From the NCBI RefSeq assembly GCF_014252955.1, contig NZ_JACMIA010000003.1, positions 1 through 64,000 on the forward strand: 64,000 nt of DNA. Reading direction: 5' to 3'. The DNA is from Stappia sp. 28M-7. GTDB taxonomy: Bacteria; Pseudomonadota; Alphaproteobacteria; Rhizobiales; Stappiaceae. This document shows, one piece after another, positions 26,996 through 37,157 of this stretch. Both the position numbers and the translations under genes were made by a program. Within the stretch, counting starts at the first letter, position 1, and every line of letters begins with the position of its first letter. The notes below the pieces were generated by a model. It was not told where the DNA came from. It did no database searches and saw only the letters and a list, made by a program, of their open reading frames with translations.

Positions 26996-27006
26996 TCCGC
27001 AGCCTG

Positions 27007-27900
27007 TCAGCCGGCCGTCGGCGGCTCGTTCTTGGGCGGGCCGGCCCGCTTGCCGTCTTCCTCGTCGCGATAGGCCTCCAGCGCCGACATGCGCCGTTCG
27101 CTGCGCTCGGGATCGCGCGCGGTGACGCCGGCAACCAGCGTTTCGGCGATCACCATCAGGGCGGCGGAGGAATCCCAGGGCGAGGGCACGGAGATGCGGG
27201 CGGGCAGCACATGGGTCGCGACGCTGGCGATCGGCGACAGCCAGCTGTCCGTGATCAGCACCACCGTTGCCCCGCGCTTGGCCGCCGCCGTGGCCATGCG
27301 GACCAGGTCGGCCTGATAGCGGCGGATGTCGAAGACCACCAGCACGTCGCGCCGTCCGATATCCAGCAGGGCATCACGCCAGTTACCCTCCTGACCGGCC
27401 ATGTGCATGACGCCGGAGCGCAGGATCCGCAGATGCGCGGCCATGTAGCGGGCCAGCGCGTCGGTGAAGCGGCCGCCCAGCAGGTAGATTGTGCGGCGCT
27501 CGTCGGACAGGAGCGAGACGACGGCCTCCAGCTCGGCCGCCGGCAGATGGCGGAAGGTCTCGCCGATATTGGCGCGAACCGCCTCCGCCACGGCGCCGAT
27601 GCCGGCTGCGGTGGCCGCGCCGCCCGCCTGGGTGCCGTCCTTGGCCTTGGCCAGCGGCGATTTCAGCTGGTCCTCCAGCTCCGTGCGCAGCCTGGTCTGG
27701 AGCGCCGCATAGGTGCCGCAGCCCATCCGCGCGGCAAAGCGCAGGATCGTCGGCGAGCTGACGCCGGCCGCGCTGGCGAACTGCGCGACGGTGCCCAGTC
27801 CCAGCACCGGGTAGTTGGCGAGCAGGGCGAGAGCTGCGCGGCGCTCCGTCGCAGTGCACTCGCCGAGTCTTTCGCGGATTTCTTCGGCAAGGGATGTCAT
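27007..27900 (-). CDS. RpiR-family transcriptional regulator
   Basis: 297 residues. N-terminal RpiR-type HTH (about 1-80, with TVAQFASAAGVSSPTILRFAARMGCGTYAALQ) and a SIS domain (about 125-265: RRTIYLLGGRFTDALARYMA, DVLVVFDIRRY, VVLITDSW). SIS domains usually bind sugar phosphates, though RpiR proteins beside amino-acid or TRAP genes sense other ligands. ATG at 27900 chosen by the HTH start; the frame is open to 27990. It is divergent from the FGase-TRAP-GS-ALDH-ADH cluster and is the obvious candidate regulator. Confidence 0.92.
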   Translation of the reverse strand: MTSLAEEIRERLGECTATERRAALALLANYPVLGLGTVAQFASAAGVSSPTILRFAARMGCGTYAALQTRLRTELEDQLKSPLAKAKDGTQAGGAATAAGIGAVAEAVRANIGETFRHLPAAELEAVVSLLSDERRTIYLLGGRFTDALARYMAAHLRILRSGVMHMAGQEGNWRDALLDIGRRDVLVVFDIRRYQADLVRMATAAAKRGATVVLITDSWLSPIASVATHVLPARISVPSPWDSSAALMVIAETLVAGVTARDPERSERRMSALEAYRDEEDGKRAGPPKNEPPTAG

Positions 27901-27982
27901 GGTCTTGAGGCCGCCTCCCCGGCCGGGTTCCGCGTCGCCGGGCGGACGCTTTCGCAAACCCGATTGACATCGGTCTCGCGCA

Positions 27983-28038
27983 TGTATCAAATCATACAGA
28001 AGGCGGGATTAAACGCAATTTTGTAACAAATAAAACAG
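27983..28038. promoter_or_regulatory. Pair of 17-base direct repeats, candidate RpiR operator
   Basis: TGTATCAAATCATACAG (27983-27999) recurs as TGTAACAAATAAAACAG (28022-28038), 14 of 17 identical, starts 39 bases apart. The first copy also contains a perfect inverted repeat TGTAT/ATACA. A TTGACA at 27964-27969 could serve as a -35 element for the plus-strand cluster, which would put the first repeat over the core promoter. Confidence 0.55.
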
Positions 28039-28080
28039 CGTTTGCGACTTTCCGCCAAGGCAACCGGCTGGGGGACAGGG

Positions 28081-28893
28081 ATGGAGCCGACAGCGGCACG
28101 CGACGGCGAGCTATTACCCGGCGACATGTCGCAGGCGGAAACGGTCGTGGTCGCGGAAAATGCCGGCGGCCGCGGCAAGATCGTCCTTCTATGCGACCAC
28201 GCCTCGCGGCGGCTGCCGCCCGAATACGGCGATCTCGGCCTGGACGAGGCGGCGCGGCGCGCCCACATCGCCTGGGATCCCGGTGCGCTCGGTGTCTCGC
28301 GACATCTGTCGCGGCGGTTCGATGCGCCTCTCGTCTATCCCGACCTGTCGCGGCTTGTTCTCGACTGCAACCGCGATATCGCAGCCCACGACCTGATTCC
28401 GGCGATCAGCGAGACGACCGAGATCCCCGGCAATCGCGACCTGGGCGCGGCCGAGCGGGCCCGTCGCATCGCCCTTGCCCACACGCCTTTCCATTCCCGT
28501 ATCGAAACGCTGCTCGACGCGCGCGCGGCCGCCGGCCTCGACAGCATCGTCGTCTCGGTTCACAGCTTCACGCCGCTCTACAAGGGCTTCGACCGCCCCT
28601 GGCCCGTCGGCATCCTGTCCAATCGCGACCGCAGGGTCGCCGAGGCGATGCTGGCCGATCTTGCGGCACAGGGCATCGTCGATCTCGGCGACAACGAGCC
28701 CTATGCGCCGGGCGACGGGGTCTACTACACGGTCGGCCGCCACGGCGAGGCGCGGGGCCTGCCCTGCGTGATGATCGAGGTGCGCAACGACGAGATCGCG
28801 GACGACGCCGGCGAAAGCCTGTGGGCCGACCGGCTCGGCCGTGCGCTCGATGCCGCGCTGGCGCAGCTCGCGGCGGAAGGGAGGTCCGGATGA
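28081..28893 (+). CDS. N-formylglutamate amidohydrolase-family protein
   Basis: 270 residues, FGase superfamily. Conserved elements: LLCDHASRRLP near 40 (metal-binding His region), RDLSRL-like PDLSRLVLDCNRD with the Arg/Asn pair, VSVHSFTPLY near 160 (second His) and MIEVRNDEI near 240. Members hydrolyse an amide on glutamate or act on formyl or related N-acyl groups. ATG at 28081 follows GGGGGACAGGG. It leads an operon with a TRAP transporter and a glutamine-synthetase-like ligase, so I infer it removes the glutamyl cap at the end of that pathway; histidine degradation, the textbook role, has no genes here. Confidence 0.9.
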   Translation: MEPTAARDGELLPGDMSQAETVVVAENAGGRGKIVLLCDHASRRLPPEYGDLGLDEAARRAHIAWDPGALGVSRHLSRRFDAPLVYPDLSRLVLDCNRDIAAHDLIPAISETTEIPGNRDLGAAERARRIALAHTPFHSRIETLLDARAAAGLDSIVVSVHSFTPLYKGFDRPWPVGILSNRDRRVAEAMLADLAAQGIVDLGDNEPYAPGDGVYYTVGRHGEARGLPCVMIEVRNDEIADDAGESLWADRLGRALDAALAQLAAEGRSG

Positions 28894-29489
28894 TGACCTC
28901 CCTGATGCGCGGCTATGTGAGGGTCGTCGACGCGATCAACTACCGCCTTGGGCGGGTGGTGATGTACGGCCTCTTCGTCATGGTCGCCGTGCTGTTGTGG
29001 TCGTCGATCTCCAAGACCTTCTTCCTGCCGTCCCTGTGGACGCTGGAGGTCGCCCAGTTCGCGATGGTCGCCTACTACATTCTCGGCGGGCCCTATTCGA
29101 TCCAGCTCGGCTCGAACGTGCGCATGGACCTCTTCTATGCCGGCTGGTCCGTGAAGAAGAAGGCCTGGTTCGACGCGTTCACGGTGCTGGTTCTGATCTT
29201 CTATCTCGGCGTCCTGCTTTATGGCGGCGTCGGATCGACCGCCTATTCTCTGGGCCATTTCGGTACCGAGCCCTTCGTCTTCCTGAAGGATCTGGCCGTC
29301 GCCTTCATCACCGGCGGCCCTGACGCTGCGGCCGAGGTGATCGGCCATGTCGAGCGCAGCCCGACCGCCTGGCGGCCGGTGATCTGGCCGATCAAGGCGA
29401 TCATGTGCCTGGGCTTCCTCTTGATGCTGCTGCAGGCCGTCTCCGAGCTCATCAAGGACATCGCGCGCATCCGCGGAGAGGAAATCTGA
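28890..29489 (+). CDS. TRAP transporter small permease (DctQ family)
   Basis: 199 residues and four membrane segments (about 28-48, 60-80, 95-118 and 165-185), the DctQ layout. GSNVRMDLFYAGWS is the conserved loop. The ATG overlaps the amidohydrolase stop by four bases behind GGGAGG. It forms the membrane part of a sodium-driven TRAP importer with the next gene. Confidence 0.9.
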   Translation: MMTSLMRGYVRVVDAINYRLGRVVMYGLFVMVAVLLWSSISKTFFLPSLWTLEVAQFAMVAYYILGGPYSIQLGSNVRMDLFYAGWSVKKKAWFDAFTVLVLIFYLGVLLYGGVGSTAYSLGHFGTEPFVFLKDLAVAFITGGPDAAAEVIGHVERSPTAWRPVIWPIKAIMCLGFLLMLLQAVSELIKDIARIRGEEI

Positions 29490-30811
29490 TGTCCTATGAG
29501 ATGATCGCGCTGCTGATGTTCTCGTCGATGATGCTGATGCTGCTGACCGGTCAGCGCGTTTTCGGTGCCATCGGCGGCGTGGCGGCCGTCGCGGCGCTGG
29601 CGCTGTGGGGCACCGGCGGGTCCGACATTCCCTTCGCCTCGGCCATGAAGCTGATGAAGTGGTACCCGCTTCTCACCCTGCCGATGTTCATCTTCATGGG
29701 CTATGTCCTGTCGGAATCGAAGATCGCCGACGACCTCTACAAGATGTTCCATGTGTGGATGGGGCCGGTCTCCGGCGGTCTCGCCATCGGCACGATCGGA
29801 CTGATGGTGCTGGTCTCGGCGATGAACGGCCTGTCCGTCGCCGGCATGGCCATCGGCGCCACCATCGCCCTGCCCGAGCTGCTGCGCCGCGGCTACGACA
29901 AGCGCATGGTCACCGGCGTCATCCAGGCCGGATCCTCGCTCGGCATTTTGGTGCCGCCGTCGGTGGTGCTGGTGCTGTACGCAATGATTGCGCGCCAGCC
30001 GGTCGGCCAGCTCTGGCTCGCCGGTGTGGTGCCGGGTCTGATGATGGCGACGATGTTCGTCGTCTACATCTATGTCCGCTGCCGTATCACGCCCTCGCTC
30101 GGCCCGGTCCTGCCGGTGGACGAGCGCAACGTGTCGGGTGCTGAAAAGATGCGCCTGCTCGGCGCCGGCATCCTGCCGCTGGTGATCTTCGCGGCGATGA
30201 TGGTGCCCTTCGTCAACGGCTGGACCTCGCTGGTCGAGAGCTCCGCGATCGGCGCCATGACCGCGTTCGTCGCCGCCGTGCTCAAGCGCCGGATGACCTG
30301 GAAGGTGTTCGAGACCTGCCTGCGCCAGACGCTCGCGATCTCCTGCATGTTCATGTGGATCATTCTTGCCGCGCTCGGCTTCGGCGCCGTGTTCGACGGT
30401 CTCGGCGCGGTCAAGGCGATCGAGACCCTCTTCACCGAAAGGCTCGGCCTGTCGCCCTGGATGATCCTGATCCTGATGCAGGTGTCCTTCCTGGTGATGG
30501 GCACCTTCCTCGACGACACGGCGATGCTGGTGATCGTCGCGCCGCTCTACGTGCCGCTGGTCGCCGCGCTCGGCTTCGACCTCGTGTGGTACGGCGTGCT
30601 CTACACGGTCACCACCCAGATCGCCTACATGACCCCGCCCTTCGGCTACAATCTGTTCCTGATGCGGGCGATGGCGCCTCCGGAAATCACCATGCGGGAC
30701 ATCTACGGCTCGATCGCGCCCTTCGTGCTGGTCATGATCCTCGCATTGGCATTGATAATGGTCTTCCCGCAGATCGCCCTGTGGCTGCCCGACTACATCT
30801 ACGGCCGCTGA
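29489..30811 (+). CDS. TRAP transporter large permease (DctM family)
   Basis: 440 residues and about twelve membrane segments. Typical motifs: PMFIFMGYVL near 65, AMNGLSVAGMAIGATIALPEL near 115, GSSLGILVPPS and MGTFLDDTAMLVIVAPL. It is the ion-coupled channel subunit. Its start overlaps the DctQ stop by one base (TGATG) with GGAGAGG upstream. The gene order here is Q-M-P, with the binding protein last and after a 136-base gap. Confidence 0.95.
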   Translation: MSYEMIALLMFSSMMLMLLTGQRVFGAIGGVAAVAALALWGTGGSDIPFASAMKLMKWYPLLTLPMFIFMGYVLSESKIADDLYKMFHVWMGPVSGGLAIGTIGLMVLVSAMNGLSVAGMAIGATIALPELLRRGYDKRMVTGVIQAGSSLGILVPPSVVLVLYAMIARQPVGQLWLAGVVPGLMMATMFVVYIYVRCRITPSLGPVLPVDERNVSGAEKMRLLGAGILPLVIFAAMMVPFVNGWTSLVESSAIGAMTAFVAAVLKRRMTWKVFETCLRQTLAISCMFMWIILAALGFGAVFDGLGAVKAIETLFTERLGLSPWMILILMQVSFLVMGTFLDDTAMLVIVAPLYVPLVAALGFDLVWYGVLYTVTTQIAYMTPPFGYNLFLMRAMAPPEITMRDIYGSIAPFVLVMILALALIMVFPQIALWLPDYIYGR

Positions 30812-30947
30812 TCCGGAAGATCAGACGAAATCCCTCACCACCGCAACACAAGGAGCTTCACCACCGGACACCGAACGCCGCGCCACCACAACAATCAGAA
30901 AGGGCGCGCTCTTGCATCTCTTCAACGAATCCAAAGGGGAATGAGAC
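30812..30947 (+). promoter_or_regulatory. C/A-rich, G-poor leader before the TRAP binding-protein gene
   Basis: 136 bases between dctM and dctP. Most of it (about 30825-30900) is C and A with few G, with repeats of CACCACC and CAACA, unlike the rest of the window. Such single-stranded C-rich RNA is what Rho loading sites look like and also suits Hfq or sRNA binding. AAAGGGGAA before the next ATG is a good ribosome site. Confidence 0.4.
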
Positions 30948-31997
30948 ATGACCAACAGACGCGACTTTCTGAAGAAGGCAGGCCTTGGCACCGTCGCCGC
31001 TGCCGGCGCCTCGACGCTGGCCGCTCCTGCCGTGCTCGGCCAGGCGCCGATCAAGTGGCGGTTGCAGACCTATGCGGGCGCCGCGCTCGCCGAGCACGTG
31101 ATCAAGCCGCATATCGACGCCTTCAACAAGGCGGCCAACGGCCAGATGGAGATCGAGCTGTTCTTCGCCGATCAGCTGGTGCCGACGGGCGAGCTGTTCC
31201 GCGCCATGCAGCGCGGCACCATCGACGCGGTGCAGTCGGATGACGATTCCATGGCCTCGCCGACGGAAGTGACCGTGTTCGGCGGCTACTTCCCCTTCGC
31301 CAGCCGCTACTCGCTGGATGTGCCGGTGCTGTTCAACCAGTACGGCCTGAAGGAGATCTGGGAAGAGGAATACGCCAAGGTCGGCGTCAAGCACATCTCC
31401 GCTGGCGCCTGGGATCCGTGCCACTTCGCCACCAAGGACCCGATCCGCAGCCTTGCCGACCTGAAGGGCAAGCGCGTCTTCACCTTCCCGACCGCGGGCC
31501 GCTTCCTGGCCCAGTTCGGCGTGGTGCCGGTGACGCTGCCCTGGGAGGATATCGAGGTCGCGGTGCAGACCGGCGAACTCGACGGCGTCGCCTGGTCGGG
31601 CATCACCGAGGACTACACGGTCGGCTGGGCCGACGTGACCAACTACTTCCTGACCAACAACATCTCCGGCGCCTGGGCCGGCTCGTTCTTTGCCAACATG
31701 GACAAGTGGAATGAGCTGCCGGACCATCTCAAGACCATGCTGCAGCTGGCCATGGATGCGTCCCACTATTACCGCCAGTGGTGGTACTGGGGCGGCGAGG
31801 CGAGCCTTCGCGTCAACGGCACCAAGATGGAGCTGACCTCGATTCCGGACGCCGAGTGGGCTACCGTCGAGGAGGCTGCCGTCAAGTTCTGGGACGAGAT
31901 TGCGGCAGAGTCCGAGATCAAGGCGAAGGTCGTGGAGATCTTCAAGAAGTACAATTCCGACATGCAGAAGGCCGGGCGGCCCTACCGCTACACCTGA
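30948..31997 (+). CDS. TRAP transporter substrate-binding protein (DctP family), Tat-type signal
   Basis: 349 residues. The N-terminus RRDFLKKAG with an Ala-rich core ending LAAPAVLGQ is a twin-arginine signal. DctP features follow: MQRGTIDAVQSDD, LADLKGKRVFTFPTAGR and VQTGELDGVAWSG. In many DctP proteins the segment after LKG carries an Arg that clamps the ligand carboxylate; by eye that position is Thr here (FTFP), which may mean a ligand that is not a plain carboxylate. Followed by a terminator hairpin before the ligase gene. Confidence 0.93.
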   Translation: MTNRRDFLKKAGLGTVAAAGASTLAAPAVLGQAPIKWRLQTYAGAALAEHVIKPHIDAFNKAANGQMEIELFFADQLVPTGELFRAMQRGTIDAVQSDDDSMASPTEVTVFGGYFPFASRYSLDVPVLFNQYGLKEIWEEEYAKVGVKHISAGAWDPCHFATKDPIRSLADLKGKRVFTFPTAGRFLAQFGVVPVTLPWEDIEVAVQTGELDGVAWSGITEDYTVGWADVTNYFLTNNISGAWAGSFFANMDKWNELPDHLKTMLQLAMDASHYYRQWWYWGGEASLRVNGTKMELTSIPDAEWATVEEAAVKFWDEIAAESEIKAKVVEIFKKYNSDMQKAGRPYRYT

Positions 31998-32005
31998 TGC
32001 CGGCG

Positions 32006-32040
32006 GGCCGGGGCGGCGTTGGTCGCCCCGGCCTTCCTTT
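32006..32040 (+). terminator. Hairpin after the TRAP binding-protein gene
   Basis: Perfect 10-base stem GGCCGGGGCG (32006-32015) and CGCCCCGGCC (32024-32033), 8-base loop, then TTCCTTTC. It lies nine bases after the stop codon. Probably a partial terminator, giving extra binding-protein mRNA relative to the downstream enzymes. Confidence 0.65.
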
Positions 32041-32090
32041 CCCGACCGCGCCCGCGCTTTCGCCCCGCTTAACCGACAATGATGGTTCCA

Positions 32091-33458
32091 ATGGCTGGCA
32101 ATCTTTCTTTCGACGCTCTCAAGGCCGCCGTCGCCGACGGCGCCATCGACACGGTGCTGGTCTGCGCCGTCGACATGCAGGGCCGCCTGATGGGCAAGCG
32201 CTTTCATGCGCGCAACTTCATCGAGCATTCCTTCGAGGAGACCCATTGCTGCAACTACCTGCTGGCGACGGACCTCGAGATGTACACTGTCGAAGGCTAT
32301 GCATCGACCAGCTGGGCCGGCGGCTACGGCGACTATGTGATGAAGCCGGACCTGTCGACCCTGCGTCCCGTGCCCTGGCTGGACGGCACGGCGATGGTAC
32401 TGTGCGATGTTCTCGACCATCACCATCACGAGGCGGTGCCGCATTCGCCGCGCGCGCTGCTGAAGGGCCAGATCGCCCGTCTCGATGCCATGGGCCTCGA
32501 GGCCAAGATGGCGACGGAGCTGGAGTTCTTCCTGTTCGAGAAGAGCTTCGACGATATCCGCCGCTCGGGCTTCCGCGATCTGGAACCGATCTCGGCCTAT
32601 AACGAGGACTACCACATCCTCCAGACCACCAAGGAAGAGGAGGTGATGCGCCCGATCCGCAATCACCTTTATGCCGCGGGCATTCCGGTGGAGAATTCCA
32701 AGGGCGAGGCCGAGGCCGGCCAGGAGGAGCTGAACATCCGCTATGCGGATCCGCTCGGCTGCGCCGATCACCACACCATAGCCAAGCATGCCACCAAGGA
32801 GATCGCCTGGCAGCACGGCCGCGCGGTGACCTTCATGCCGAAATGGCATCATGCCCGCGTCGGTTCCTCGTCCCATGTGCATCAGTCGCTGTGGAACAAG
32901 GACGGCTCCAGCGCCTTTTTCGATCCGGATGCGCAGCACGGCATGTCCCAGCTGATGCATCACTACATGGCCGGCCTGATCCGGTACGCTTCGGATTACA
33001 CCTGGTTCCTGGCGCCCTATGTGAACAGCTACAAGCGCTTCCAGAAGGGCACCTTCGCGCCGACCAAGACCGCATGGTCGGTCGACAACCGCACCGCCGG
33101 CTTCCGGTTGTGCGGCGAGGGCACGAAGGGTGTGCGCGTCGAATGCCGCATCGGCGGCTCGGACCTCAACCCTTATCTGGCCCTGGCCGCGCAGCTTGCG
33201 GCCGGCATTCGGGGCATCGAGGAGAAACTGGAGCTTGAGGCGCCGGTGACCGGCGATCTCTACCAGTCGCGGAGGCTGAAGGAGATCCCGCGCACCCTGC
33301 GCGCGGCGACCGAGACCCTGCGCAAGTCGAAGATGCTGCGCGAGGCCTTCGGCGATGCGGTGATCGACCACTACGTCCGCGCGGCGGAATGGGAGCAGGA
33401 AGAATTCGACCGCGTGGTCACCGACTACGAACTGGCCCGCGGCTTCGAGCGCAGTTGA
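32091..33458 (+). CDS. Glutamine-synthetase-family ligase (PuuA/GlnT-like, gamma-glutamyl-amide synthetase)
   Basis: 455 residues, glutamine synthetase fold. N-terminal beta-grasp with VDMQGRLMGKRF (the Asp that binds the amine), catalytic-domain motifs ATELEFFLFE, AGQEELNI, SSHVHQSLW, NSYKRF and ECRIGGSDLNPYLALAA. Length and motifs fit the PuuA/GlnT group, which joins glutamate through its gamma-carboxyl to amines using ATP, not housekeeping GlnA. ATG at 32091 (MAGNLSF) preferred; ATG at 32079 is possible; neither has a clear ribosome site. Next to an aldehyde dehydrogenase and an alcohol dehydrogenase, it probably starts a glutamylated pathway. Confidence 0.9.
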   Translation: MAGNLSFDALKAAVADGAIDTVLVCAVDMQGRLMGKRFHARNFIEHSFEETHCCNYLLATDLEMYTVEGYASTSWAGGYGDYVMKPDLSTLRPVPWLDGTAMVLCDVLDHHHHEAVPHSPRALLKGQIARLDAMGLEAKMATELEFFLFEKSFDDIRRSGFRDLEPISAYNEDYHILQTTKEEEVMRPIRNHLYAAGIPVENSKGEAEAGQEELNIRYADPLGCADHHTIAKHATKEIAWQHGRAVTFMPKWHHARVGSSSHVHQSLWNKDGSSAFFDPDAQHGMSQLMHHYMAGLIRYASDYTWFLAPYVNSYKRFQKGTFAPTKTAWSVDNRTAGFRLCGEGTKGVRVECRIGGSDLNPYLALAAQLAAGIRGIEEKLELEAPVTGDLYQSRRLKEIPRTLRAATETLRKSKMLREAFGDAVIDHYVRAAEWEQEEFDRVVTDYELARGFERS

Positions 33459-33465
33459 GGATTTC

Positions 33466-33483
33466 GGCCCGCCGCAGCGGGCC
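33466..33483 (+). other. Small hairpin after the ligase gene
   Basis: GGCCCGC (33466-33472) and GCGGGCC (33477-33483) around CGCA, eight bases after the stop codon. There is no T tract, so it may protect or attenuate the transcript instead of ending it. Confidence 0.4.
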
Positions 33484-33554
33484 GGATCCACTTGGAATAT
33501 CTTGCAAACATGCAGAGGCAGGCCGCCAGCGCGGACCTGCCCGAAAGGTGTGAC

Positions 33555-34943
33555 ATGTCCGACGTGATCAAGCTGATTTCCCCGGTCGACGGCTCCGTCT
33601 ATGCCGAGCGTCCCGTGGCGAGTGCTGCCGAGATCGACCAGGCTGTGGCCGAGGCCCGCGCCGCGCAGGCCGCCTGGGCGGCCACCCCGCTGTCCGAGCG
33701 CTGCTCGGCTGTGCTGGCCGCCGTTGCCGCGCTCGAGGCGATGAACGACGAGATCGTGCCCGAGCTGGCCTGGCAGATGGGCCGGCCGGTGCGCTATGGC
33801 GGCGAGAAGGGCGGCACGCGCGAGCGCACCGACTACATGGTCAAGATCGCCGAGGAGTCGCTCCGGGCCCGCCACCACACGGACCGTCCGGGCTTCACCC
33901 GCTACGTGCGGCCGGAGCCGCTCGGCATCGTCATGGTCATCGCACCGTGGAACTACCCGTTCATGACCGCGATCAACACCATCGTCCCGGCGCTGATCGC
34001 CGGCAATGTGGTGATCCTCAAGCACGCGGCGCAGACGCTGCTGGTCGGCGAGCGGCTCGACAAGGCGTTCAAGGCGGCGGGCCTGCCCAAGGGCGTCTTC
34101 CGCAACATCGTGCTGAACCACGGCCAGACCGAGGCGCTGCTCGGTTCGGGCCGCATCGACCATATCAACTTCACCGGCTCGGTCGCCGGCGGCCGCGCCA
34201 TCGAGAAGGCGGCGGCCGGAACCTTCGCCACGCTCGGCCTGGAGCTCGGCGGCAAGGACCCGGCCTATGTCCGCGAGGACGCCGACGTCGCCTTCGCGGT
34301 CGAGAACCTGGCCGATGGCGCCTTCTACAATTCCGGTCAGTGCTGCTGCGGTATCGAGCGCGTCTATGTGCACGAGAAGCACTATGACGCGGTGGTCGAG
34401 GGTCTGGCGGCAGCAGCCTCCGCCTACACGCTCGGCAATCCGCTCGACGAGGCGACGACGCTCGGCCCGATGGCGCAGGCGCGCTTTGCCGCCCATGTGC
34501 GCGAGCAGACCGCCGAGGCCCTGCGCAAGGGCGCCAAGGCCCTGGTCGACCGCGCCCGCTTCCCTCAGGACAAGGAAGGCACGCCCTACCTGATGCCGCA
34601 GGTGCTGGTCGACGTCGATCACCAGATGTCGGTGATGCGCGAGGAGAGCTTCGGCCCGGTTGTCGGCGTGATGAAGGTGCGCTCCGACGAGGAGGCCATC
34701 GCGCTGATGAACGACAGCCCCTACGGCTTGACCGCCTCGATCTGGACCGCCGACGAGGAGGCCGCCATCGCCATCGGCGACCGCGTGGAGACCGGTACGA
34801 TCTTCATGAACCGCTGCGACTATCTCGACCCGGCGCTGGTGTGGACCGGCGTCAAGGACACCGGCAAGGGCGCGGCCCTGTCGGAAATCGGATACCTGTC
34901 GCTGACGCGGCCGAAGTCCTTCCACCTGCGCGCCCGCTCGTAA
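33555..34943 (+). CDS. NAD(P)-dependent aldehyde dehydrogenase
   Basis: 462 residues, aldehyde dehydrogenase superfamily. Conserved positions: APWNYPF near 134 (oxyanion Asn), GLELGGKDP near 234 (general base Glu), NSGQCCCG near 260 (catalytic Cys) and EESFGPVVGV near 365. ATG at 33555 follows GAAAGG. It oxidises an aldehyde to the acid; its place after a glutamyl ligase and before an iron alcohol dehydrogenase suggests a gamma-glutamyl-amino-aldehyde, as PuuC does in putrescine breakdown, but the substrate is inferred. Confidence 0.94.
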   Translation: MSDVIKLISPVDGSVYAERPVASAAEIDQAVAEARAAQAAWAATPLSERCSAVLAAVAALEAMNDEIVPELAWQMGRPVRYGGEKGGTRERTDYMVKIAEESLRARHHTDRPGFTRYVRPEPLGIVMVIAPWNYPFMTAINTIVPALIAGNVVILKHAAQTLLVGERLDKAFKAAGLPKGVFRNIVLNHGQTEALLGSGRIDHINFTGSVAGGRAIEKAAAGTFATLGLELGGKDPAYVREDADVAFAVENLADGAFYNSGQCCCGIERVYVHEKHYDAVVEGLAAAASAYTLGNPLDEATTLGPMAQARFAAHVREQTAEALRKGAKALVDRARFPQDKEGTPYLMPQVLVDVDHQMSVMREESFGPVVGVMKVRSDEEAIALMNDSPYGLTASIWTADEEAAIAIGDRVETGTIFMNRCDYLDPALVWTGVKDTGKGAALSEIGYLSLTRPKSFHLRARS

Positions 34944-34994
34944 CGGCGCGCAGCCATCTCCGCTTCGCATTCCTTCCTGTCAGGATCTGAGGAC

Positions 34995-36158
34995 ATGACC
35001 ACCACCCCGTCCGCCAACTGGAACTATCCGACCTCCGTGCGCTTCGGCGCCGGGCGCATCAAGGAGCTCGGCAAATGTGCCGCCCTGCTCGGCATGAAGC
35101 GGCCGCTCCTCGTCACGGACCCGGGCCTTGCCCGCCTGCCGATGACCGCCAACGCACTGGAACTGCTGCGCCAGGCCGGCCTGGAGCCGGACATCTTCAG
35201 CGACATCAAGCCGAACCCGACCGCGTCCAATGTCGAAGCGGGCGTTGCCGCCTACCGCGCCGGCGGTCATGACGGCGTCATCGCCTTCGGCGGCGGCTCC
35301 GGTCTCGATGCGGGCAAGGTCATCGCCTTCATGGCCGGCCAGACCCGGCCGATGTGGGATTTCGAGGATATCGGCGACTGGTGGACCCGCGCCGATCCGG
35401 ACGGCATCGCGCCGATCCTCGCCGTCCCGACCACGGCCGGCACCGGTTCCGAGGTTGGGCGCGCCGGCGTCATCACCAACGAGGAAACCCACACCAAGAA
35501 GGTCATCTTCCATCCGAAGATGCTGCCGGGCATCGTCATCTGCGATCCCGAGCTGACCGTGGGCATGCCGCGCTACTTCACCGTCGGCACCGGCATGGAC
35601 GCCCTCGCCCACTGCCTGGAGGCCTATTCCTCCACCTTCTACCACCCGATGGGCGATGGCATTGCGGTCGAGGGCATGCGCCTCGTCTTCGAGAACCTGA
35701 AGCGCGTCGCCGAAACGCCGGATGATCTCGTTGCGCGCGGCCACATGATGTCGGCCGCCGCAATGGGCGCGGTCGCCTTCCAGAAGGGCCTCGGCGCCAT
35801 CCATGCGCTTTCCCATCCGGTCGGCGCCCTCTACGACACCCATCATGGCATGACCAACGCGGTCTTCATGCCCTATGTGCTCGACTTCAACCGCTCGGCC
35901 ATCGCCACCAAGATCGACCGGCTCGCCGGTTATCTCGGTATCTCCGGCGGCTTCGACGGCTTCCTGCAGGCGGTGCTCGACCTGCGCACTGCGCTCGATG
36001 TGCCGCATACGCTGGACGGTCTGAAGGTCGACGGCGCCAAGGCCGCGAAGATCGCCGAAATGGCCATCGTCGATCCGACCGCCGGCGGCAATCCGATCGA
36101 GCTGACCCTCGAGGGTGCAGCCGAGATCTTCGACGCGGCACTCACCGGCCGCCTCTGA
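34995..36158 (+). CDS. Iron-containing alcohol dehydrogenase
   Basis: 387 residues, group III Fe-dependent ADH. NAD-binding GGGSGLDAGK near 97, then metal ligands: CDPELTV (Asp near 190), MDALAHCLEAY (His near 206), ALSHPVGALYDTHHG (two His near 272 and 286). It interconverts an alcohol and an aldehyde. Last gene of the RpiR-controlled cluster, 51 bases after the aldehyde dehydrogenase. Acting in the oxidative direction it would feed that enzyme. trpA follows after 168 bases and is unrelated. Confidence 0.94.
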   Translation: MTTTPSANWNYPTSVRFGAGRIKELGKCAALLGMKRPLLVTDPGLARLPMTANALELLRQAGLEPDIFSDIKPNPTASNVEAGVAAYRAGGHDGVIAFGGGSGLDAGKVIAFMAGQTRPMWDFEDIGDWWTRADPDGIAPILAVPTTAGTGSEVGRAGVITNEETHTKKVIFHPKMLPGIVICDPELTVGMPRYFTVGTGMDALAHCLEAYSSTFYHPMGDGIAVEGMRLVFENLKRVAETPDDLVARGHMMSAAAMGAVAFQKGLGAIHALSHPVGALYDTHHGMTNAVFMPYVLDFNRSAIATKIDRLAGYLGISGGFDGFLQAVLDLRTALDVPHTLDGLKVDGAKAAKIAEMAIVDPTAGGNPIELTLEGAAEIFDAALTGRL

Positions 36159-36191
36159 GGCAGGCGTCGGCGGTTGCCGACGCTTCGCCAA

Positions 36192-36260
36192 TTGACAGGG
36201 GGGTACTCCGCCCCCTACATCCCCACTGGCTTTCGCGGGCAGGAATGGCCTGCGAAAGCC
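36192..36260 (+). promoter_or_regulatory. Candidate promoter and stem-loops upstream of trpA
   Basis: A consensus TTGACA (36192-36197) is followed 18 bases later by TACATC, a weak -10. A G-run and C-run (36198-36203 and 36211-36215) can pair between them. A second stem follows at 36228-36260: GGCTTTC plus GCAGG against CCTGC plus GAAAGCC, with a 4-base bulge. The stems are in the presumed leader; function unknown. Confidence 0.45.
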
Positions 36261-36326
36261 GCGAGCGGCCGGCCTCGACGGCAGGCCGACGCCGGCAGGA
36301 CAGATGACAGGGTGGGACCGGGCAAG

Positions 36327-37157
36327 ATGAGTGACACGCGGATCGACCGCCGCTTCGCGGCATTGCAGGCGGCGAACCGTCCGGCGCTGGTGACCTTCGT
36401 TACCGCTGGCGACCCGGACCTTGCCACCTCCCAGGCGATCCTCGATGCGCTGCCGGCCGCGGGCGCCGACGTCATCGAGCTCGGCATGCCCTTCTCCGAT
36501 CCCATGGCCGAAGGCATTCCCGTGCAGCTCGCCAACCAGCGCGCGCTGGCTGCCGGGCAGACCATGGACAAGACGCTGGACATGGTGCGTGCCTTCCGCC
36601 GCCACGACCAGGACACGCCCATCGTGCTGATGGGCTACTACAATCCGATCTACGTGCGTGATCCCGCCGTTTTCGTCAAAACGGCGGTCGAGGCGGGCGT
36701 CGACGGGCTGATCATCGTCGATATCCCGCCGGAGGCCGACGACGAGCTCTGCCTGCCGGCCATGGCCGCCGGCCTCAATTTCATCCGCCTGACCACGCCG
36801 ACGACTGACGACAAGCGGCTGCCGGCCGTTCTCGCCAACACGTCGGGTTTCGTTTATTACGTATCGGTGACCGGCATCACCGGTGCCACCATCGCCAACC
36901 GCGATCGGGTGACCGAGGCGGTCCGCCGCATCAAGCGCCATACCGCGCTGCCCGTGGCGGTCGGCTTCGGCGTCAAGACGGTGGAGGATGCCGAGGTGAT
37001 CGGTCGCGACGCCGATGGCGTCGTCGTCGGATCGGTGCTGGTGGAAGCGGTGCGCACGAGCCTCGACGGCGAGGGCCGGGCGACGGATGCGACGGTCGAG
37101 GCTGTGGCCTCGGTGGTGCGTTCGCTCGCCGAGGGTGTTGCCCGGGCCCGCGGCTGA
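36327..37157 (+). CDS. trpA: Tryptophan synthase alpha chain
   Basis: 276 residues, TIM barrel. [12 protein letters not shown] near 18 and [13 protein letters not shown] near 50 carry the catalytic Glu and the Asp at position about 59; [10 protein letters not shown] near 175 and VGFGVKT near 212 bind the phosphate. It releases indole from indole-glycerol phosphate for TrpB. Unusually trpB and trpF are not upstream; a catabolic cluster is. trpA, accD and folC are codirectional. Confidence 0.96.

Follow-up and report, generated by a model that had tools for sequence, protein, structure and literature searches.

Gene content of the cluster

The stretch of DNA analysed here, positions 1-64,000 of contig NZ_JACMIA010000003.1 of Stappia sp. 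28M-7 (hereafter the window), contains at 27007-36158 a cluster in which an rpiR regulator gene diverges from seven codirectional genes. These encode, in order, an FGase-family amidohydrolase, the DctQ, DctM and DctP components of a tripartite ATP-independent periplasmic (TRAP) transporter, a glutamine synthetase (GS)-like ligase, an aldehyde dehydrogenase (ALDH) and an iron-type alcohol dehydrogenase (Fe-ADH) (Table 1). The cluster is very probably the Stappia copy of a known operon for the gamma-glutamylation of ethanolamine.

The reading frames of all eight genes are open, the starts of rpiR, FGase and ALDH being ATG codons chosen by us within longer open reading frames (ORFs). The main domain of every product scores above its Pfam cut-off, and the GS beta-grasp N-domain of the ligase scores below it (21.1 versus 33.4 bits). 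FGase and dctQ overlap by 4 bp and dctQ and dctM by 1 bp, while the remaining gaps among the codirectional genes measure 51-136 bp. ORFs and Pfam matches agree with a first-pass annotation, made from the sequence alone, in the coordinates, the divergent RpiR, the seven codirectional genes and the enzyme families, as well as in its statement that the cluster contains no amine oxidase.

Table 1. Genes and operator-like sites of the cluster, with predicted Eto-type assignments in brackets
Feature	Position	Strand	Evidence
RpiR-family regulator	27007-27900	-	Pfam HTH_6 33.2 bits, SIS 66.8 bits; position as RpiR of MED193_10021
Operator-like palindrome 1, TGTATCAAATCATACA	27983-27998	n/a	16 bp in the rpiR-FGase gap
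Operator-like site 2, TGTAACAAATAAAACA	28022-28037	n/a	16 bp, 39 bp from site 1
FGase-family amidohydrolase (GGAH)	28081-28893	+	PF05013 143 bits; GGAH of MED193_10026 occupies the same position
TRAP small permease DctQ (EtoV)	28890-29489	+	PF04290 57.5 bits
TRAP large permease DctM (EtoW)	29489-30811	+	PF06808 222 bits
TRAP binding protein DctP (EtoX)	30948-31997	+	Likeness to Csal_0678; Tat-type signal domain; Phe178
GS-like ligase (ETAGA)	32079-33458	+	PF00120 332 bits
Aldehyde dehydrogenase (GAADDH)	33555-34943	+	PF00171 402 bits; GQCC at residues 261-264
Iron-type alcohol dehydrogenase (GETADH)	34995-36158	+	PF00465 171 bits

Correspondence to published ethanolamine operons

In Phaeobacter sp. 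MED193, genes MED193_10021-10056 are assigned as RpiR, GGAH, EtoV, EtoW, EtoX, ETAGA, GAADDH and GETADH (PMC10132767, 2023). The window matches this operon in all eight genes, in their order and in the named families, and thus very probably contains an Eto/GGAH operon; the two differ in sequence and in flanking genes, the comparison being one of gene order and family names. According to the same source, five operon proteins of MED193 are raised on phosphorylethanolamine, and its EtoX binds ethanolamine with a Kd of 7.9 µM and binds neither phosphorylethanolamine nor phosphocholine. The system is therefore already published and the Stappia cluster adds no new pathway; the novelty implied by the first-pass annotation is unsupported because the same operon had been described for MED193 (PMC10132767). 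Its proposed route, in which capping is followed by oxidation of the alcohol to aldehyde and acid and by release through the FGase-like enzyme, equals both the assignment for MED193 and a proposal for Streptomyces (PMC6529630).

For Stappia, orthology, synteny and site residues are observed, and each enzyme step and the operator are inferred. Ethanolamine would be imported by EtoXVW and joined by ETAGA, with consumption of ATP, to the gamma-carboxyl of glutamate, giving gamma-glutamylethanolamide. GETADH, the Fe-ADH, would convert the alcohol to the aldehyde, which GAADDH would oxidise to gamma-glutamylglycine, and GGAH, of the FGase family, would split this into glycine and glutamate, the latter being recycled. 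The glutamate cap may serve to keep the reactive aminoaldehyde tied up.

The Streptomyces proposal likewise consists of a cap-oxidise-release chain with a release enzyme of the formylglutamate-amidohydrolase family (PMC6529630). The GlnA4 pathway of Streptomyces coelicolor resembles the window in its ligase, dehydrogenase, ALDH and predicted release step, but has a short-chain dehydrogenase instead of the Fe-ADH, another kind of putative ethanolamine transporter and the regulator EtuRI; its release gene is named a glutamine amidotransferase in one figure legend (PMC6529630).

The binding protein and the substrate

In a sequence search of the PDB, the window DctP matches 4uab with 615.7 bits, the next structure scoring 61. 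The predicted model of the protein, of middling confidence (mean pLDDT 76.7), agrees with this search in ranking 4uab and 4xf5 first (79% identity), both of which are titled as Csal_0678 of C. salexigens. Typical TRAP ligands are carboxylates; Csal_0678, known from Vetting et al. 2015 through PMC10132767 and PMC4646407, lacks the conserved carboxylate-selecting arginine and has ethanolamine as its ligand (PMC4646407, on TRAP selectivity). The corresponding position is Phe178 in the window EtoX and arginine in all 30 DctP paralogues tested in the same genome, whose reading frames were chosen by a profile built from 11 of these 30, so that the choice of frame leans on those 11. These 30 were drawn from 36 DctP-family places of the genome, which has 37 with the window's own. 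Among 67 EtoX orthologues, taken from the 80 comparison loci wherever coverage of the protein exceeded 90%, the column holds phenylalanine in 52 and tyrosine in 15. Judged by sequence, the window DctP is thus an orthologue of Csal_0678 without the carboxylate arginine.

The large subunit of ethanolamine ammonia-lyase, EutB (PF06751), by which the canonical Eut pathway is recognised, has no match in the 5.13-Mb Stappia genome (99.98% complete), E. coli being positive among 14 controls. Because of the match to MED193, the likeness to Csal_0678, Phe178, the lack of EutB and the synteny kept in 58 of 67 loci (see below), the predicted substrate is most likely ethanolamine, and the predicted product glycine. 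The relation to Csal_0678 and the missing arginine narrow the amino-alcohol class of the first-pass annotation to this compound. It is very improbable that the same chemistry is tuned in Stappia to another small amino alcohol such as 3-aminopropanol, alaninol or serinol: chain length cannot be deduced from the enzymes by themselves, and the first-pass annotation names the wider class, but EtoX is 79% identical to a protein that binds ethanolamine and 138 residues, counted irrespective of their place in or outside the pocket, are invariant across the 67 aligned orthologues.

The ligase and the other enzymes

In the PDB, the window ligase matches 5dm3, presumably from C. salexigens, with 755 bits and 11zs with 625 bits, followed at 183 bits by the next structure, the best later plain glutamine synthetase. 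The motif DGSS, which we take to be the ammonium-site motif of GlnA, is absent from the window ligase and is present as FDGSS in a separate GlnA of the genome (locus L001).

RpiR regulators often sense phosphosugars, the SIS domain being the usual sensor. This habit, the usual carboxylate ligands of TRAP transporters and the best NCBIfam match of the ligase, which is GlnA (TIGR00653, 250.2 bits), would suit an extra glutamine synthetase in an operon for a sugar or plain carboxylate. Such an operon is highly improbable, however: the GlnA score lies below the cut-off of 429, the genome already encodes the GlnA with FDGSS, the carboxylate arginine is missing from DctP, and the Pfam matches of the cluster genes include no sugar-enzyme family. 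True GlnA is disfavoured as an identity of the ligase by the missing DGSS and the TIGR00653 score; sugar, carboxylate and putrescine were rejected as substrates on the arginine column of DctP, the ligase motifs and the NCBIfam cut-offs.

In the PuuABCD (putrescine) and Ipu (isopropylamine) pathways, glutamate is attached and removed around the oxidation of an amine. The window shares this capping logic, with a ligase of the GS/PuuA superfamily beside an ALDH, but it would oxidise an alcohol and uncap with an FGase-family enzyme, and a gamma-glutamyl polyamine or isopropylamine pathway has a negligible chance of being the right assignment: by Pfam, the cluster contains neither an amine oxidase nor a PuuD-type family, the ligase scores 204.6 bits with the gamma-glutamylputrescine synthetase (PuuA) model NF045547 against a cut-off of 650, and two further GS-like genes adjoin each other elsewhere in the genome. 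These two divergent genes (G000:C1:779237-782934) are 28.6% and 29.8% identical to the window ligase and are possibly of polyamine type.

The other enzymes fit the ethanolamine route at the level of family. The only PDB match of the FGase is 2odf (Atu2144, 205 bits); the genome has five FGase-family places, among which that of the cluster scores weakest. The Fe-ADH carries DALAH at 202, HALSH at 270 and THHG at 282, presumably the expected metal-ligand pattern, and in the PDB it matches methanol dehydrogenases together with further Fe-ADHs, of which none is named for this pathway. The ALDH has no PDB match at E 1e-80. The genome encodes glycine-cleavage-T-type proteins (seven GCV_T matches), a family-level count that does not distinguish the true GcvT.

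Conservation of the cluster

The comparison loci were the best 80 of 588 ligase relatives. In 62 of them all eight genes are present with identical order and orientation, and the clustering is therefore not due to chance. The DNA of 67 loci spans the whole cluster; at the same thresholds, and with order and rpiR strand checked, the complete set is found in 58 of these, while the other four complete loci have a shorter flank. The neighbourhood search that the first-pass annotation had proposed as a check thus found the gene set largely kept.

EtoX was found in 46 of 61 related genomes (E 1e-100), comprising every one of the 14 genomes of the genus, that of the window among them, 22 of 23 other genomes of the family (36 of 37 for the whole family) and 10 of 24 other genomes of the order; one of the 46 matches has an internal stop and one covers only 260 of 349 residues. 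This confirms the predicted ethanolamine importer, and with it this branch of phospholipid breakdown, as common in the bacterium's family.

Several points weigh against the assignment as an ethanolamine operon. The enzyme steps of the TRAP-type operon are predictions in the sources consulted, and PMC10132767 heads its Fig. 5 'Predicted ... pathways'. That paper calls the genes of C. salexigens and A. tumefaciens a demonstrated ethanolamine pathway, citing Vetting 2015, in disagreement with PMC6529630, where the C. salexigens pathway is an in silico prediction. The second-best structure of the ligase, 11zs, is named only as a glutamine synthetase catalytic domain, and GlnA is, as noted, its best NCBIfam model. 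Conservation within the cluster is lowest for RpiR and FGase (median identity 36% and 43%), and no promoter passed a sigma-70-type scan of 27000-36400. Finally, nine of the 67 spanning loci lack parts of the cluster at the thresholds used: L042, L045 and L066 are without this rpiR and TRAP; L076 and L084 without these and FGase; L083 without all of these and ALDH; L044 without ALDH; and L046 and L061 without the ADH. In L066 a different TRAP set lies some kb upstream, its DctP scoring 176 bits.

Variant loci

Two Litoreibacter loci (L042:6453-11910 and L045) have FGase, ligase, ALDH and Fe-ADH without adjoining TRAP genes; the regulator of L042 is of the DeoR type, and both genomes encode an EtoX relative (66%) elsewhere. 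At L083:8001-10633 and L044:8001-10606 the ligase is followed by Fe-ADH, with no ALDH match in the available DNA at the thresholds used; another ALDH would have to serve there if the route works in these organisms.

A further variant occurs in an uncultured Amylibacter (L076:1756-11898), where ligase, ALDH and Fe-ADH are preceded by genes for a phosphonate-type ABC transporter (binding protein, phnC, phnE, phnE, in that order) that has two HAD hydrolases before it and a third after it. The binding protein scores under the PhnD cut-off and over that of the wider subfamily. The 1.9-Mb Amylibacter assembly, whose completeness is not established, has no match to EtoX (1e-60) or to an FGase of the cluster kind (1e-15). 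This locus could import a phosphorylated form, for example phosphoethanolamine, that is dephosphorylated inside before capping.

Regulator and operator-like sites

The divergent RpiR is most likely a repressor of the operon that acts through two putative sites in the shared promoter region. The two 16-bp sites of Table 1 are the candidate operators, which RpiR probably binds. Their joint pattern has no further match in the 5.13-Mb genome at one mismatch or fewer, and 0.01 matches are expected in the window at two mismatches or fewer for this pattern, which was derived from the sites themselves. Among 67 rpiR-FGase gaps (the window and 66 loci; 30 shuffles as control), TGT-N10-ACA is present in 30 and missing from 37, against a shuffle mean of 3.4 (largest 7), TGT-N12-ACA in 17 against 2.7 and TGT-N8-ACA in 6 against 3.1, an enrichment biased by the fact that the pattern was read off the very sequences counted. 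A TGT-N10-ACA pair with the identical 39-bp spacing recurs in 10 of the 66 other loci, from Stappia, Pannonibacter, Roseibium and one further alphaproteobacterium.

A tentative and rather doubtful extension of this model is that ethanolamine or one of the gamma-glutamyl intermediates lifts the repression exerted through the tandem sites; if so, RpiR would here be devoted to a single target and respond to an effector of a new kind. The operon description for MED193 mentions no operator (PMC10132767). The candidate operator pair is a small addition beyond the known system, no literature search having been aimed at such sites.

Flanking genes and nearest relatives

The flanking genes are unrelated to the cluster. 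Upstream lie protocatechuate-dioxygenase-type genes and pcaQ, and downstream trpA, accD (a label read from the sequence without a domain scan) and a folC-like Mur ligase gene. Of the flanking genes, pcaQ, trpA and accD were compared, and at the thresholds used they are matched in no loci other than the four Stappia loci nearest to the window (L005-L008). Among the relatives kept, the closest named loci are those of Stappia indica SBBC 49 and Stappia sp. WLB 29, whose ligase is 98% identical to that of the window.

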